IMG/VR virus record: IMGVR_UViG_3300012936_000014
Span: 1 to 59,089 of that record
Source of the DNA: a virus
Reading direction: 5' to 3' (one strand)
Length of the DNA: 59,089 nucleotides
The number at the start of each line of letters is the position of its first letter. The stretch's first letter is position 1. Below are positions 40,554-50,533 of the stretch, one piece after another. A program made the position numbers and the translations under genes. The notes under the pieces were generated by a model that worked only from the letters and a program-made list of their open reading frames with translations, had not been told where the DNA came from and did not search any database.

Positions 40554-41876
40554 TTAAATTTTTTCTCCTGCTTCAAATCCTCGGAAGGTTTTGAATCTTG
40601 GGAACCTGAGACTATACGTTTCAGAATCTTGAGACTTCGTTCTAGCATCTGCTCTTATCTCAACTAGCTGACCAACGAGACTATCACGTTCAGTCCAGTA
40701 CTCATCACGTTGAGCATCAGTGAAGCCGCTCCCACAGTTAAGGCGATAATTGTATCCATCGTCTTCTCCTTCTACAATAATGGCACCTAATCTTCCTTCA
40801 TTACGGCCTGTGCCTTCTTCAACCGCAACAACACTTAATGTAATCTCAATAAACGGTTTTGCCTTTAACCAACTATGCGTTCTTTTGCACTCATAAGGTG
40901 CATCTACATCTTTGATCATTACACCTTCGTAACCACCGTCTACAGCCGCTTTATTAAGCTCTATAAAGCGTTCTTGACCTTCAGCAGTACTTAGATCTAC
41001 ATCTTCCCATTCAAGTGCTTGTACGTGCTGTAAAACGCTTTCATTCTGTTCTACCCAAGCCTTAACTGCCTGACTTCTAAATGACTGTGGTTTGTCCCAA
41101 ATACCTTTTTGGAAGTCTGCTAGTGGACACATATCAAACAAGTGTAAGACTGCGTCATCTGACTGCTTGCCATCCTTACGATGCACCTGCTTCATAAGGT
41201 CTTGGAAGTTAGCACTCATTACTTCGCCATCTAATACAAGATCATATGGCGCAGGCTTTTGTGCAATCACTTCTTCAATCTCTGCAATAATGTGGCCAAA
41301 GTTATGAAACTGCTTACCGTTACGTGAAAACATTTCTACTTTGTCGCCACGGATGATTGTAATAACACGAACACCATCAAGTTTAATTTCAATCTGTTTC
41401 TTACCTACCATTTTCTTTTCATGGTTAGCACTATCATGTGCAAGTGGACAAGTAAACACAGGAATAGCATATTGCGGAAACTTTTTAGCAATCTTATTCA
41501 CTGTCTTTTCTGATACACCACAACGTAGATCTTTAATTAAAATACGTCTGTAAAACATATTCCATTGTTCTGTAGTTGCCACACTCATTGCAAGTTCAAT
41601 TGCATCACGTGCCGCATGTCCTGTAAGCTCTCTATTTATAAGCTGATTTGCTAGTGTTTTAAAATTATCCCAGGATAGTCCTTGTCCTGTCAGTACATCT
41701 GTACGTTCTGGTACTTGCTTTACACCAAATGTTACAAGCGGATCCAGTGCCATCTTGACACCTTCAAAAAATTCATCTAAGCCCTCAGTCATAGCTTCTT
41801 CTATCACTGCTTCTTTTGCAAGTCTAGAATTATCTGCCTCTAGTTTTTCAATTATTGTTTGTGGTTGTGTTCTCAT
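40554..41876 (-). CDS. ATP-dependent DNA ligase (T4 gp30-like)
   Basis: 440 aa. Nucleotidyltransferase motif I is EIKLDGVR near residue 160, with the Lys that takes AMP. LVLDGEVM near 218, GYEGVMIKD near 318 and SWLKAKPFIEI near 340 are motifs III, IV and V. The C-terminal OB domain follows. An N-terminal helical domain of ~135 residues is present as in T4 ligase. It seals nicks in replication and repair. It has its own early promoter just below the tRNA-Cys gene. Confidence 0.94.
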   Translation of the reverse strand: MRTQPQTIIEKLEADNSRLAKEAVIEEAMTEGLDEFFEGVKMALDPLVTFGVKQVPERTDVLTGQGLSWDNFKTLANQLINRELTGHAARDAIELAMSVATTEQWNMFYRRILIKDLRCGVSEKTVNKIAKKFPQYAIPVFTCPLAHDSANHEKKMVGKKQIEIKLDGVRVITIIRGDKVEMFSRNGKQFHNFGHIIAEIEEVIAQKPAPYDLVLDGEVMSANFQDLMKQVHRKDGKQSDDAVLHLFDMCPLADFQKGIWDKPQSFRSQAVKAWVEQNESVLQHVQALEWEDVDLSTAEGQERFIELNKAAVDGGYEGVMIKDVDAPYECKRTHSWLKAKPFIEITLSVVAVEEGTGRNEGRLGAIIVEGEDDGYNYRLNCGSGFTDAQRDEYWTERDSLVGQLVEIRADARTKSQDSETYSLRFPRFKTFRGFEAGEKI

Positions 41877-42091: not shown

Positions 42092-42126
42092 AAAAAAAGC
42101 CCCTAACAAATTAATGCTAGGGGCTT
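42092..42126 (-). terminator. Intrinsic terminator (attenuator) before tRNA-Trp
   Basis: 11-bp stem AAGCCCCTAGC/GTTAGGGGCTT with one G-U pair, an 8-nt AT loop, and a run of T from 42098 to 42092. It ends at the first base of tRNA-Trp, so the tRNAs can only be made if it fails to form. Confidence 0.85.
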
Positions 42127-42168
42127 GTTGACGTCTTTTTAAAATTCACGTCAAGACATACCCCTAAC
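42116..42168 (-). promoter_or_regulatory. Antiterminator RNA structure (alternative to terminator)
   Basis: GTTAGGGG at 42168-42161 is identical to the 3' arm of the terminator (42107-42100). It can therefore pair with the CCCCTA(GC) arm at 42123-42116, which would prevent the terminator. A 7-bp hairpin TTGACGT/ACGTCAA at 42154-42128 sits between and would stack inside the antiterminator. The leader-peptide stop codon lies within GTTAGGGG. Confidence 0.7.
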
Positions 42169-42211
42169 TCGGAGGCCAACAAGTAATGTTTGTTGTGTTA
42201 GTCTTGATCAT
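42164..42211 (-). CDS. 15-aa Cys-Trp leader peptide
   Basis: MIKTNTTNITCWPPS, with ribosome site AAGGA 8 nt before ATG 42211. Adjacent TGT and TGG codons (42181-42176) stand four codons before the stop, and the next genes are tRNA-Trp and tRNA-Cys. This is the layout of a ribosome-sensing attenuator such as trpL, but directed at tRNA genes. The peptide itself probably has no other function. Confidence 0.75.
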   Translation of the reverse strand: MIKTNTTNITCWPPS

Positions 42212-42240
42212 GTAAATATTCCTTCTTTGTTTATAATACT

Positions 42241-42269
42241 AATATAGTACATCTATTTATGAAAGTCAA
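42241..42269 (-). promoter_or_regulatory. Early promoter of the leader/tRNA unit
   Basis: TTGACT, 17 bp, TATATT. The spacer also contains CATAAATA (42261-42254), so the unit might be read by late polymerase as well. Confidence 0.8.
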
Positions 42270-42287
42270 CCTTTTTTGGCAAAAAAT

Positions 42288-42388
42288 TGGCTCTGGGGGA
42301 AGGACTCGAACCTCCACGCTAAATATATTGCAGTACATTTGGCACACGAGAAACAATCGTGCGTGTCTACCATTTCCACCACCCCAGA
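42288..42388 (-). tRNA. Atypical class II tRNA with GUU anticodon
   Basis: 101 nt. Acceptor TCTGGGG/CCCCAGA, G73 and encoded CCA, T-arm GGAGG/CCTTC with TTCGAGT loop, and a Leu/Ser-like D-arm with GGTAGACAC. The anticodon stem CACGA/TCGTG has loop TTGTTTC, so positions 34-36 read GUU (Asn codons). A 29-nt variable region folds into a long arm (AAATGTA/TATATTT). Normal tRNA-Asn is class I, and U37 is very rare. It starts 5 nt after the stop of the synthetase-like gene. It may be a defective gene or a specialised tRNA. Confidence 0.8.
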
Positions 42389-42392
42389 TCGG

Positions 42393-43238
42393 TTATGCCG
42401 CTATCTTTTTACTTTGTTCTAAAAGATCTAAAGCGGCAATCATTCTTGTCATTCCTATTCCGCCGCCAACTCTTTCAAAGAAGTCGAACTCTAAAAACTT
42501 TTCAAGTTCTGCTTCAACTCTATCTTTGCCAAATAGTTCGTATAATAGATTACTGTAAGCACCATTAGTAATAGTATGAAATGTGTTTCTCATTTGATCT
42601 ACATCAGTTGAACGCTCTGCAGATCCTATTGTTTCCATTCCACCTAGTATCACATCTATTTTCTTACTGCTATCGCCATCGTCATTTCTGCTCATATTCC
42701 AAAAAGGTGATGTCATTTCAGGAAAGTCTGTGATCATTGCAGTATCAAATTGTTCATACATTTTAGTTTCATGCTCTGCTTCTAGTTCGTCACTTGCACT
42801 CAATTCAAAATGTGTTTGCCATTGTCTGTAAGTTTTTTCTGTAGGTTTTGTAAAACCTAGGTATTCAACTAATTCATACTCCATCTTTTTAAGATCGTTT
42901 ATGTCACCTGGCATTTCAAATTCAAACATTGGAAATATTATATCGTGTCTGCCTGGTATAGCATTAGGCTCTTGTCTGTAAGATGTGCTGACACAAAAAA
43001 AGCCCTTTGCATCGGGCTGTGAAAGTAATTCATGTTCTAACCACATTTGGCCTGTTTGCGGCAACGGCCACACTTGGCCTGCGTAATTGTATGTTGCTAC
43101 ATTGAATGGGTCTTCACATGCGGCAAGTATACTTAATCTATTTTGTGTATGTACTTCTTGGAAACCTTTGTCCAAAAAAAATGACCTTAAAAGGCCAACT
43201 GTTTTAGTAAATTTACTTGGGTTTATGAGTTGTGTCAT
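42393..43238 (-). CDS. Class II aminoacyl-tRNA synthetase-like core (Asp/Asn type)
   Basis: 281 aa. Motif 2-like STSYRQEPN near residue 85, then RHDIIFPMFEFEMPG, match the class IIb active site. GSAERSTDV near 208 corresponds to the Asp/Asn-type amino-acid-binding region, and VGGGIGMTRMIAA near 260 is motif 3. The N-terminal OB anticodon-binding domain of AspRS, AsnRS and LysRS is missing, so it resembles AsnA, EpmA or other stand-alone cores. It could charge the adjoining tRNA, modify a protein, or make asparagine. AAGGAAAA ribosome site. Confidence 0.82.
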   Translation of the reverse strand: MTQLINPSKFTKTVGLLRSFFLDKGFQEVHTQNRLSILAACEDPFNVATYNYAGQVWPLPQTGQMWLEHELLSQPDAKGFFCVSTSYRQEPNAIPGRHDIIFPMFEFEMPGDINDLKKMEYELVEYLGFTKPTEKTYRQWQTHFELSASDELEAEHETKMYEQFDTAMITDFPEMTSPFWNMSRNDDGDSSKKIDVILGGMETIGSAERSTDVDQMRNTFHTITNGAYSNLLYELFGKDRVEAELEKFLEFDFFERVGGGIGMTRMIAALDLLEQSKKIAA

Positions 43239-44043: not shown

Positions 44044-44127
44044 TGGTGCCCATGGAGGGACTCGAACCCCCACGCCGTAAGCACAGGTACCTAAAACCTG
44101 CGTGTCTACCAATTTCACCACATGGGC
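44044..44127 (-). tRNA. tRNA-Leu(UAG)
   Basis: 84 nt class II tRNA with acceptor GCCCATG/CATGGGC, anticodon TAG in loop TTTAGGT, short variable arm, A73 and encoded CCA. Decodes CUN. Its 5' base overlaps the upstream stop codon by one nucleotide. Confidence 0.95.
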
Positions 44128-44365: not shown

Positions 44366-44875
44366 GTATTTTTTTTTGGTCATCCTATATGTCATAAAAG
44401 TTCTTTCTTTTCCATGTTCATGTAATTTAAGTGTTTCATCATACACATGGGTGAATCCAAGTTTTTCAGTTGCACGTTGATTACGTTTGTTATCATGCGT
44501 CATATGAATATGCACGTTGTCATAATATTTAAATGCATGGTCTATTAATAAAAAACGGAAACTGTGATTGTATGTTCCTCCCCAATATTGTCTACCTAAA
44601 AAAGTACTGCCCATATAAAGTCTATCCTGCACAGTATAATATCTTGTTGTGCCTATCTGCGTGTTATTATTATTTTCAAGTATACAAAAACTTTTTCCTG
44701 TACTAAGTAAATGATTAAAAAATCTAGTAAACGGTTTTAATTCATACCTGTTTTTGGCAGGCATGCCTTCCCATATAAGCGGGTCTTTGGCTACAGCATA
44801 GAGAGGCCAATAATCGTCTTGCACCAATGGCCTTACTGTTACTAAATCATTTTTAAGTGTTGGTTGAAAATTCAT
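44354..44875 (-). CDS. GNAT-family N-acetyltransferase (RimJ/L-like)
   Basis: 173 aa. VTVRPLVQDDYWPLY at the start, a central strand with GTTRYYTV, then GGTYNHSFRFLLIDHAF and NQRATEKLGFTHVYDE fit the RimJ/RimL layout. It would acetylate a protein N-terminus or small molecule. It overlaps the QueC-like gene by 23 bp. Confidence 0.8.
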   Translation of the reverse strand: MNFQPTLKNDLVTVRPLVQDDYWPLYAVAKDPLIWEGMPAKNRYELKPFTRFFNHLLSTGKSFCILENNNNTQIGTTRYYTVQDRLYMGSTFLGRQYWGGTYNHSFRFLLIDHAFKYYDNVHIHMTHDNKRNQRATEKLGFTHVYDETLKLHEHGKERTFMTYRMTKKKYLTQ

Positions 44876-46532
44876 TTATTGCCCATTCACGTTCTTCGCA
44901 CCACCAACATTTACCACATGCGGGGTCACTTACTTCGCAACTAAAACTAACATCTAAGAGTTCTTCTATACACATACTGTGATACAATGCTATAACAACA
45001 CTTTTATCTATGTTGTAAAATGGTCTTAGGGTTTTTTTATCTCCCCCTTTAGTTAAATCTTTATCACGTCTAGTATCACGTTCATTGTCACTGTCAAACT
45101 TTACTGGAGGATTTGAAGTCATACCATTTAACCATGTGTCTATATCATGTTTTCTTTCTATTTCTTTTTTAATCTGTCTGCGTTCTGCTTCTATATTATC
45201 TTCACTAACAGTTCTAATATAATGAGTGTTAATTTGATCAGGATAGTATTGTTGTATCCAATCTACTACTGCTTTAGCATAAGGTAATTGATGCCTTCTG
45301 CTAGTCCTATCTATTGTTAAAAGAACACACTCGTGCCCTGCCTGACACAGCATGTATAGTAATAACGCACTATCGGCACCTCCACTTATTGACACACCTA
45401 CCTTTTTAGGCACCTGTAACAGTATTTTCTGTATGTAATCATTTTTCCATAATCTATCTCTACTGTTTTCGCTTGCTACTTCCTTTAACACTTCAGAGGC
45501 AGATATACCATTGTATTGTTGTAAACAATGATCACCTCCATAACAAATAGTATCACCAGGTATACTGCTAATAAACTGCTTGGCATTTTTCCAACTAGCA
45601 TTGCTGTCTTTTAGCAAGTTTCCCGGCATACGTTTTAGGGCACCGTTCCACCATATCACTCCATTGCCTGTTGTGTTTTTGAAAATAGGCTTCATATCAT
45701 CTGGATCAGTAATGTTTACTCTATGAAAGTGATGTTGTAGTTTTTGATATGAACGCCAATGATCTAACCATCCATCGCCAAATTCATTTTGAAGTGCGTC
45801 CCACACTATCCTCTTGGTTTTTCCTTTGCTAGAAAATTGACTACGATTAAAAAGACCTATAGTAGGAAATTTTTCATTTACATGATCTATCCAAGCACCT
45901 AATTTTTTACCATCCCAATTTTCAATAGTATATTTTCTAACCTGTAAACTTGGTTTACTAATATCTATGTGATGCACTACAGTATCTTTATGATAACCAT
46001 GATATTGTAGCAAACTGTTAATAAAAAATCCACTACTTACTGTCATTGCCCAGTCAACAGGACCTGTTTTATTGCCATGCACTGGCAACTCATTGTGTAC
46101 TAGATATGACATATTGCTGTCGTCTATCAAATTTTTTACAACAGCAGTGTGACCTGTTAAGAAATTTTGTTCGGTATCGCTTGGGATATAATCAACTGTT
46201 CTATCGAGAGTTAAATTTTGCTCTCCTGTGCCTTTAGGTTGCCATACTCGAACAGTGGGTAGAATATATGTCCATTCATAGTTTTCTAAATTTGGAGCAA
46301 CGTGTCTTTCGTATGTTCCCCATAGAAAAAGTGTACCTGCTTCTATAAGGAGTACACTGCTATAGTGTTCAAAGTGACTTTGTACAAATTTATCAACTAC
46401 ATAGTAGTCCATAGAATCTGAACTATATCTACTAGATACACTGAAATCTATGCTTAGTTGACTGTAATTATTCGCTATCAGGTTATACCATTTATTTCCT
46501 GTACTAATAATAATTACTGCCTTAGAAGCCAT
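44853..46532 (-). CDS. PP-loop ATPase with QueC-like zinc tail, fused to unknown domain
   Basis: 559 aa. An N-terminal ~360-residue region has no recognisable motif but is aromatic-rich. The C-terminal ~190 residues hold the PP-loop SISGGADSALLLY near residue 385 and a closing zinc motif SDPACGKCWWCEERE as in QueC. QueC forms preQ0 from the QueD/QueE pathway product. With queD at 35918 this suggests a deazaguanine pathway. The fusion is unusual; QueE and a transferase are not in the window. AAGGAAA ribosome site. Confidence 0.75.
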   Translation of the reverse strand: MASKAVIIISTGNKWYNLIANNYSQLSIDFSVSSRYSSDSMDYYVVDKFVQSHFEHYSSVLLIEAGTLFLWGTYERHVAPNLENYEWTYILPTVRVWQPKGTGEQNLTLDRTVDYIPSDTEQNFLTGHTAVVKNLIDDSNMSYLVHNELPVHGNKTGPVDWAMTVSSGFFINSLLQYHGYHKDTVVHHIDISKPSLQVRKYTIENWDGKKLGAWIDHVNEKFPTIGLFNRSQFSSKGKTKRIVWDALQNEFGDGWLDHWRSYQKLQHHFHRVNITDPDDMKPIFKNTTGNGVIWWNGALKRMPGNLLKDSNASWKNAKQFISSIPGDTICYGGDHCLQQYNGISASEVLKEVASENSRDRLWKNDYIQKILLQVPKKVGVSISGGADSALLLYMLCQAGHECVLLTIDRTSRRHQLPYAKAVVDWIQQYYPDQINTHYIRTVSEDNIEAERRQIKKEIERKHDIDTWLNGMTSNPPVKFDSDNERDTRRDKDLTKGGDKKTLRPFYNIDKSVVIALYHSMCIEELLDVSFSCEVSDPACGKCWWCEEREWAINEFSTNT

Positions 46533-49927: not shown

Positions 49928-50533
49928 CTATGATGTTACTTCGTCTTCTGCTACTTTTTTACTTATCATCTTATGGATTCCTGGATTTACTTCAAGAGCA
50001 TGAGGCATCATCTCATGTCTGATATAGTTACGTCTAAATCCAGTATCGTCATTGCTAGGGTCAATTAGATAAGGAACATTATGCACATGAGCCCAAAGCT
50101 CAAAGTCACGTTTCCTTGTCTTCCTAAAAGGACGAACAATGTGATTACGTCTGTATGGAATAATTTTTGGATTACCATGCAGACTGCTAAACAACCAAGT
50201 TTCTACACAATCATCTAAATGATGACAAGTAACAACAGGAAAGTCTTTTACCTTTTCTAAAAAACTGTATCTTTTTTCTCTCCACCAATCTTCTCTGCTA
50301 CGTCCCGGAGGAGTAGTACCTTTTACTGCGTGGGTGAGGTACTCAAGATCATTTTGTCTACAATATTTTACAACAAAGGCATGTGCTTCTTCGGCATGAC
50401 CTGTACCATGATTAACATGCAGGACCACTACTTCGTGATTCCTTTTAAGAAAATCCAGTGCGGCCATACTATCCACACCACCACTTACAGCCACACCGAT
50501 CTTACGTGGCAATTTGCCTTGCAACTTAATCAT
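49928..50533 (-). CDS. TilS-like PP-loop tRNA-lysidine synthetase domain
   Basis: 201 aa. PP-loop VAVSGGVDSMAALDF near residue 16, TCHHLDDCVETWLFSSLHG near 103 and SNDDTGFRRNYIRHEMMP near 165 are TilS hallmarks. TilS converts C34 of tRNA-Ile2(CAU) to lysidine so that it reads AUA. Only the N-terminal catalytic domain is kept; C-terminal tRNA-binding domains are absent, as in short TilS forms. No tRNA-Ile2 gene is seen in the window. It overlaps the next gene by one base. Confidence 0.85.
   Translation of the reverse strand: MIKLQGKLPRKIGVAVSGGVDSMAALDFLKRNHEVVVLHVNHGTGHAEEAHAFVVKYCRQNDLEYLTHAVKGTTPPGRSREDWWREKRYSFLEKVKDFPVVTCHHLDDCVETWLFSSLHGNPKIIPYRRNHIVRPFRKTRKRDFELWAHVHNVPYLIDPSNDDTGFRRNYIRHEMMPHALEVNPGIHKMISKKVAEDEVTS

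Follow-up and report, generated by a model that had tools for sequence, protein, structure and literature searches.

A stand-alone relative of the class II aminoacyl-tRNA synthetases and the class II tRNA encoded directly 3' of its gene form a dedicated pair in phages, and the link between the protein, here named X, and pyrimidine synthesis is well supported by the genes that surround it in phages and in cells. The pair probably starts a previously undescribed, possibly tRNA-dependent route to pyrimidine nucleotides and does not serve ordinary protein synthesis. We assign a probability of about 50% to the reading that X and the tRNA together open a pyrimidine pathway encoded by phages, with X activating asparagine and the tRNA serving as carrier or co-substrate. 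The substrate, product and chemistry of X, and the part of the tRNA in the reaction, are what we infer from these data.

The pair in the window and in related phages

The window is the whole stretch of viral DNA that was analysed, 59,089 nt in length. The features needed here are the following:

42393–43238, minus strand: gene for X, a class IIb synthetase-like core of 281 aa (PF00152, AF2 model, Foldseek, residue comparison)
42288–42388, minus strand: class II tRNA with anticodon GUU, 101 nt including the encoded CCA, with U1–A72 and G73 (RF00005, structural parse, covariation)
42352–42354, minus strand: anticodon G34 U35 U36, found in all 148 adjacent homologues
42351, minus strand: U37 of the tRNA (structural parse)
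42316–42344, minus strand: long variable arm of 29 nt (homologue range 12–38 nt)
40554–41876, minus strand: ATP-dependent DNA ligase, used as a synteny anchor (PF01068, 4.8e-22)

The only significant domain in X is PF00152 (class II D, K and N; E = 8e-17), and the AlphaFold model (pLDDT 94.5) comprises the catalytic core only. With its 281 aa, the protein starts at the motif 1 helix, and the N-terminal anticodon-binding OB domain is absent by both domain search and model. A first, sequence-only reading of the window had described exactly such a stand-alone class II core without an anticodon-binding domain, a description that the domain match and the core-only model confirm.

The Foldseek search returned as the best match for X an AsnRS with bound Asn-adenylate (1x54; E 3.3e-17). 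The pocket of X contains E68 and R209, together with R88, E90 and H98 of motif 2 and R265 of motif 3. E68 and R209 are found in 61 of 61 X family members and in 11 of 11 AsnRS, whereas AspRS has K/Q at these positions. The Lys of AspRS is missing from X, and the residue comparison classifies the pocket as Asn-specific. Judged by these residues, X keeps the amino-acid pocket of AsnRS.

The tRNA begins 4 nt after the stop codon of X. It was missed by ARAGORN and by a fast whole-window scan. In a local RF00005 search, the Infernal-type check that had been proposed for it, it scores 42.8 bits (cutoff 29), and this score and a structural parse uphold the earlier description of a 101-nt class II tRNA with GUU, U37, G73 and an encoded CCA. 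The anticodon loop reads UUGUUUC. The D arm is similar to the one in the tRNA-Leu(TAG) at 44044–44127 of the same window, and the sequence suggests a tRNA-Leu-like body joined to a tRNA-Asn-like acceptor end and discriminator. Of the Leu/Ser-like body claimed at first, the Leu-like character of the D arm therefore stands, with the acceptor end and discriminator now described as tRNA-Asn-like.

Among 148 distinct tRNAs adjacent to X, U1–A72 and G73 are invariant (148/148). GUU is equally constant (148/148), an anticodon that the tRNA finder required, and X loci whose downstream sequence is long enough showed no other anticodon. Position 37 carries U in 124 of these tRNAs, A in another 17 and C in the other 7; G is never seen there, and the base is a pyrimidine in 131/148. 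U33 is missing from 8/148. The odd U37 is thus not peculiar to the window copy. A pyrimidine at position 37 and a lost U33 are poor features for the decoding of AAY codons. The conserved positions correspond to the tRNA-Asn identity set, while those that serve efficient decoding drift, and the option that the tRNA is used for something other than decoding gains real support from this pattern.

The variable arm of the homologues spans 12–38 nt, outside the short variable loop that defines class I, and this range argues against a length-specific reading of the arm. In 26 diverse homologues, 99.7% of the stem cells are paired and 17 of 23 stem pairs carry two-sided compensatory changes, which places the tRNA fold beyond chance. 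The intact structure and the covariation rule out a tRNA pseudogene.

Several other minus-strand features of the window were recorded. The region between the GUU tRNA and the tRNA-Trp/tRNA-Cys genes (42092–42287) contains, besides a promoter-like TTGACT...TATATT, an ORF of 15 codons (MIKTNTTNITCWPPS) in which Cys and Trp codons stand side by side. A strong terminator hairpin (−20.8 kcal/mol, z −5.1) lies at 42092–42150. By its sequence, this region looks like an attenuator leader of the tRNA-Trp and tRNA-Cys genes that follow it; no leader of this type turned up in relatives in a crude motif search. Positions 44853–46532 encode a protein of 559 aa that has a QueC/PP-loop domain at its C terminus and is adjoined by a GNAT gene, and positions 49928–50533 a TilS-like PP-loop ATPase (PF01171, 1.6e-31), a possible phage tRNA-modifying enzyme.

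Relatives of X occur in more than 598 viral stretches. A class II GUU tRNA lies beside or just after X at 76 of the 80 best X loci and at 74 of 80 loci with a P-SSM7-type X. Most tRNA-less exceptions among these loci are contig ends, and the phage loci L019 and L024/L025 truly have X without the tRNA. A DNA pattern built on the tRNA only, with no protein information, retrieved 107 new phage loci. In 91 of them the gene just upstream, in the same orientation, is X; of the remaining 16, most are cut off by contig ends. This near-complete co-occurrence and adjacency bears out the dedicated pair that had been proposed. No third gene accompanies the pair consistently. The most frequent neighbour is found in 30 of 265 loci, which speaks against an anticodon-binding domain supplied in trans by a conserved third gene. 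That the tRNA is nearly always present, intact and close to X, while no other neighbour is conserved, implies a functional need for it.

The same pair is found in three cultured Prochlorococcus phages, P-SSM7, P-SSM2 and P-SSM5, whose records name its members 'tRNA ligase' and 'tRNA-Asn', and in P-SSM2 the tRNA of the pair is the only tRNA. X corresponds to PHROG 29758, annotated as 'unknown function'. Two huge uncultured phages (L085 and L086; LR756501 and LR756508) encode a divergent X (48% and 44%) and ordinary tRNA-Asn genes, with no class II tRNA. Phage tRNA-like elements whose anticodon loop reads CTTATAC and whose variable region has 24 nt were also observed at three loci (L003, 3666–3759; L009, 7364–7457; L020, 1407–1500).

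Pyrimidine genes around X in phages and cells

In phages, X and the tRNA occur in several arrays with genes for the last steps of UMP synthesis: DHODH-X-tRNA-OPRT (L613, L614 and L621), X-tRNA-OMPDC-DHODH (L646 and L647), DHODH-X-tRNA (L627–L632), OPRT-X-tRNA (L271) and X-tRNA-pyrE (L185, L350 and L533). The identities of the array genes are backed by Pfam, and two different OPRT-like families are represented. In L647, the tRNA sits between X and pyrF, with gaps of 6 nt and 15 nt, respectively; the pyrF profile for the phage scans had been rebuilt to exclude a bifunctional protein. When the search was reversed, 23 of 79 phage loci for the small OPRT-like gene and 12 of 44 for the DHODH-like gene had X no more than 10 kb away. 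The canonical pyrE query had a low yield (1/79) because cyanophages hold pyrE and X far apart. X is present anywhere on the contig in 18 of 49 DHODH/OPRT phage contigs, many such contigs being without it, and pyr genes are absent from the fetched flank in most phage X loci.

Two of these phage loci, L613 and L614, share with the window a colinear segment that starts at X, includes the tRNA and extends to the DNA ligase; the ligase is 83% identical, and nucleotide blocks are 77–79% identical. Their order is DHODH – X – tRNA – OPRT-like – DNA ligase. No DHODH, OPRT or OMPDC gene was found in the 59 kb of the window, itself possibly a fragment; judging from the colinear loci, DHODH and OPRT may have been lost from the copy of the window lineage or may never have been there.

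Among the named cyanophages in INPHARED (50,697 phage records), X is present only in P-SSM2, P-SSM5 and P-SSM7, which are exactly those with a close pyrE. The denominator for this match is at least 441 related T4-like records, defined by gp23 at 60% identity or more. The distance from X to pyrE in the three phages ranges from 17 to more than 100 kb, and the match has modest statistical weight since it concerns three isolates in two genera only.

A GTDB scan identified 105 cellular relatives of X, most of those listed being 50–60% identical, in CPR bacteria, Dependentiae, Chlamydiae, Midichloriaceae, Pasteurella atlantica, gammaproteobacteria and DPANN archaea. Cellular X has no adjoining tRNA of this kind, and no class II GUU tRNA was seen in the examined cellular X genomes except on virus-like contigs. 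Searches for a copy hidden elsewhere in these genomes gave tRNA-Leu as the best matches. The tRNA is thus not strictly required by every X, since cellular X and the phages L019 and L024/L025 lack a dedicated one. The sequence-only reading had counted persistence of the protein without the tRNA against the pairing; such persistence is seen in cells and in a few viruses, and not in the phage clade.

By a strict count, homologues of pyrD, pyrE or pyrF lie within 3.5 kb of X in 20 of 77 cellular loci, where about 2 would be expected, and two or more pyr genes lie within this distance in 13 of 77. The strict count for PyrD is 12/77; a looser count of 23/77 is too high, as Dus-like proteins from CPR bacteria were part of the underlying cluster. 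The gene order is X-pyrE-pyrF in gammaproteobacteria, X-pyrF-PRTase-DHODH-prs in Midichloriaceae and X-pyrF-PRTase in P. atlantica.

The enzymes of the first steps are missing from most of the X genomes tested. ATCase falls below the cutoff in 20 of 22 X genomes and is present in 14 of 14 controls, which were chosen without phylogenetic matching. The corresponding counts are 20/22 and 11/14 for DHOase, which rest on the pyrC_multi model with the E. coli-type PyrC model left out, and 19/22 and 14/14 for the CPSase large subunit (CarB). Two X genomes (G013 and G021) keep ATCase and DHOase. In the complete P. atlantica chromosome, read piecewise, no DHOase or CPSase signature was found; its sole transcarbamylase is OTCase-like, and it has two ordinary tRNA-Asn genes. 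Genome reduction also removes carAB, pyrB and pyrC, and such losses occur in scavenging bacteria, so operon linkage outweighs the missing first steps as evidence.

In two CPR bacteria (L111, 1634–3934; L117, 2844–3935), an argininosuccinate-lyase-like gene (PF00206) directly precedes X, and in L111 an amidohydrolase gene lies between pyrE and the lyase-like gene. The lyase-like gene and the amidohydrolase are possible further parts of a cellular pathway.

Alternative readings and the placement of X

Each of the alternative explanations that we considered leaves part of the data unexplained. It is unlikely that the pair provides an orthogonal supply of asparagine, in which X would charge the phage tRNA so that Asn codons remain readable despite cleavage of host tRNA-Asn by defence nucleases, while the Leu-like body and altered loop evade the nuclease. 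The AsnRS-like pocket of X and the retention of GUU and of tRNA-Asn acceptor identity agree with this, as does P-SSM2 with its single tRNA, and phage tRNAs have been reported to escape anticodon nucleases via loop mutations (PMC10264068; also cited, PMC11555353). Left unexplained are the placement of X in pyr operons of both cells and phages and its matched distribution with pyrE. Moreover, the variation at positions 37 and 33 is poorly suited to AAY decoding, and cellular X has no private tRNA. The simple orthogonal charging pair suggested by the sequence-only reading therefore survives as a dedicated pair, but it does not account for the pyrimidine-gene context.

We regard it as slightly less likely still that X alone is a tRNA-independent enzyme of the pyrimidine pathway, activating asparagine or carbamoyl-aspartate, with the phage tRNA as an accessory, for example in asparagine sensing or regulation or as a decoy. 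The occurrence of X without a dedicated tRNA in cells, and in the L019 and L024/L025 phages, fits this proposal; a tRNA that stays near-universal, intact and tightly spaced across diverse gene contexts in phages does not.

The family searches and the tree place X outside the known groups. Against the AsnRS models TIGR00457 and PRK03932, X scores 35.1 bits where the cutoff is 414, and the EpmA and GenX models give weak matches to some X members (best E 0.011 and 0.0015), short of membership. In the tree, X forms a single clade (SH-aLRT 100) apart from AsnRS, AspRS, LysRS, EpmA and two AS-AR-like proteins, which stood for the archaeal asparagine synthetase A family (AS-AR) in place of reference sequences above its cutoff. 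Residues Q32, R34, P44, N181, K193, R240, E244 and R256 are invariant in X only. By these sequence comparisons, X is a new clade outside AsnRS, AspRS, LysRS and EpmA. An enzyme of the EpmA or AsnA type is ruled out by the failed family cutoffs and the separate clade, and the grouping with either that the sequence-only reading had held against the pairing was not observed. It is accordingly improbable that X is an AS-AR-type asparagine synthetase and its pyr context a matter of general aspartate/asparagine metabolism: both have a synthetase-like core without an anticodon domain and the QxYLE motif is common to X and the AS-AR-like sequences, but X reaches 22.7 bits against the 389-bit cutoff of the archaeal family, the two form separate, well-supported clades on long branches, and neither the tRNA nor the missing CPSase, ATCase and DHOase would be explained.

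Proposed route and comparison with known systems

For the preferred reading, X and the tRNA as the entry module of a pyrimidine pathway, we tentatively propose a specific chemistry, with somewhat less confidence than the reading itself. An AsnRS-descended enzyme would convert Asn-tRNA or Asn-AMP and bicarbonate into dihydroorotate, replacing CarAB, PyrB and PyrC, with a dedicated class II tRNA-Asn as a non-decoding carrier in marine phages and with host tRNA-Asn, or no tRNA, in reduced bacteria and archaea. Of the ring atoms of dihydroorotate, asparagine lacks only C2, and this, together with the Asn pocket of X, motivates the scheme. X would activate asparagine at the α-carboxyl as Asn-AMP or Asn-tRNA at the expense of ATP, and CO2 would be taken up on the α-amine of the activated asparagine to give an N-carboxy intermediate. 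The side-chain amide nitrogen could then attack the N-carboxy carbon, closing the ring to yield dihydroorotate or a close precursor, which DHODH, OPRT and OMP decarboxylase, as host or phage copies, would convert to UMP. Such a route would bypass carbamoyl-phosphate synthetase, ATCase and DHOase. Cellular X might use the cell's own tRNA-Asn or none, whereas phages would rely on the dedicated tRNA as carrier; with U37 and a loose position 33 it would be a poor decoder, which would keep Asn-tRNA away from translation.

X, having no domain for anticodon binding, does not account for the invariant GUU, which would require another enzyme to read it, for example host AsnRS or AspRS. Host asparagine-charging enzymes read GUU and G73, and the invariance of the anticodon suggests that they may also act on the phage tRNA.

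Carbamoyl phosphate and aspartate are considered the essentially universal starting materials of de novo pyrimidine synthesis. If the proposal is true, a relative of the aminoacyl-tRNA synthetases would open a new route to a core metabolite, and tRNA would have one of its rare roles beyond translation. Such a route might account for UMP synthesis in reduced bacteria and archaea that have pyrD, pyrE and pyrF but no first steps, as well as the frequency of the pair in ocean phages. The anonymous PHROG 29758, the 'tRNA ligase' of cyanophages, becomes a testable enzyme, with P-SSM2 and P-SSM7 available as cultured phages.

A literature search with few subscription journals and no bioRxiv returned no account of the pairing or of a pyrimidine role; an earlier description elsewhere is possible. 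The 'tRNA ligase' T4-GC 194 and the tRNA-Asn of P-SSM2 and P-SSM7 are the same pair as X and its tRNA. In the accessible part of a 2010 cyanophage survey, T4-GC 194 is listed as a sporadic host-type gene, with no description there of the pairing, the class II body or a pyrimidine link (PMC3037559).

X shares with AsnRS (Pyrococcus horikoshii, 1x54) the class IIb catalytic fold, motifs 2 and 3, and E68 and R209, but differs in lacking the OB domain, in its identity of about 20%, and in its separate clade, pyr-operon context and X-only invariant residues. Archaeal asparagine synthetase A (AS-AR, PRK06462) is likewise a stand-alone AsnRS/AspRS-like core, whereas X fails the cutoff of that family and forms its own clade; we know of no tRNA partner for AS-AR. 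In tetrapyrrole synthesis by GluTR, an aminoacyl-tRNA is the activated intermediate of a small-molecule biosynthesis. The likeness to X is one of concept only, as enzyme class, amino acid and pathway differ, and we claim no homology. Compared with the canonical pyrimidine pathway (CarAB, PyrB, PyrC, PyrD, PyrE and PyrF), the X-linked genes are homologues of PyrD, PyrE and PyrF, whereas X lies where CarAB, PyrB and PyrC would be expected, which are missing in most X genomes tested.
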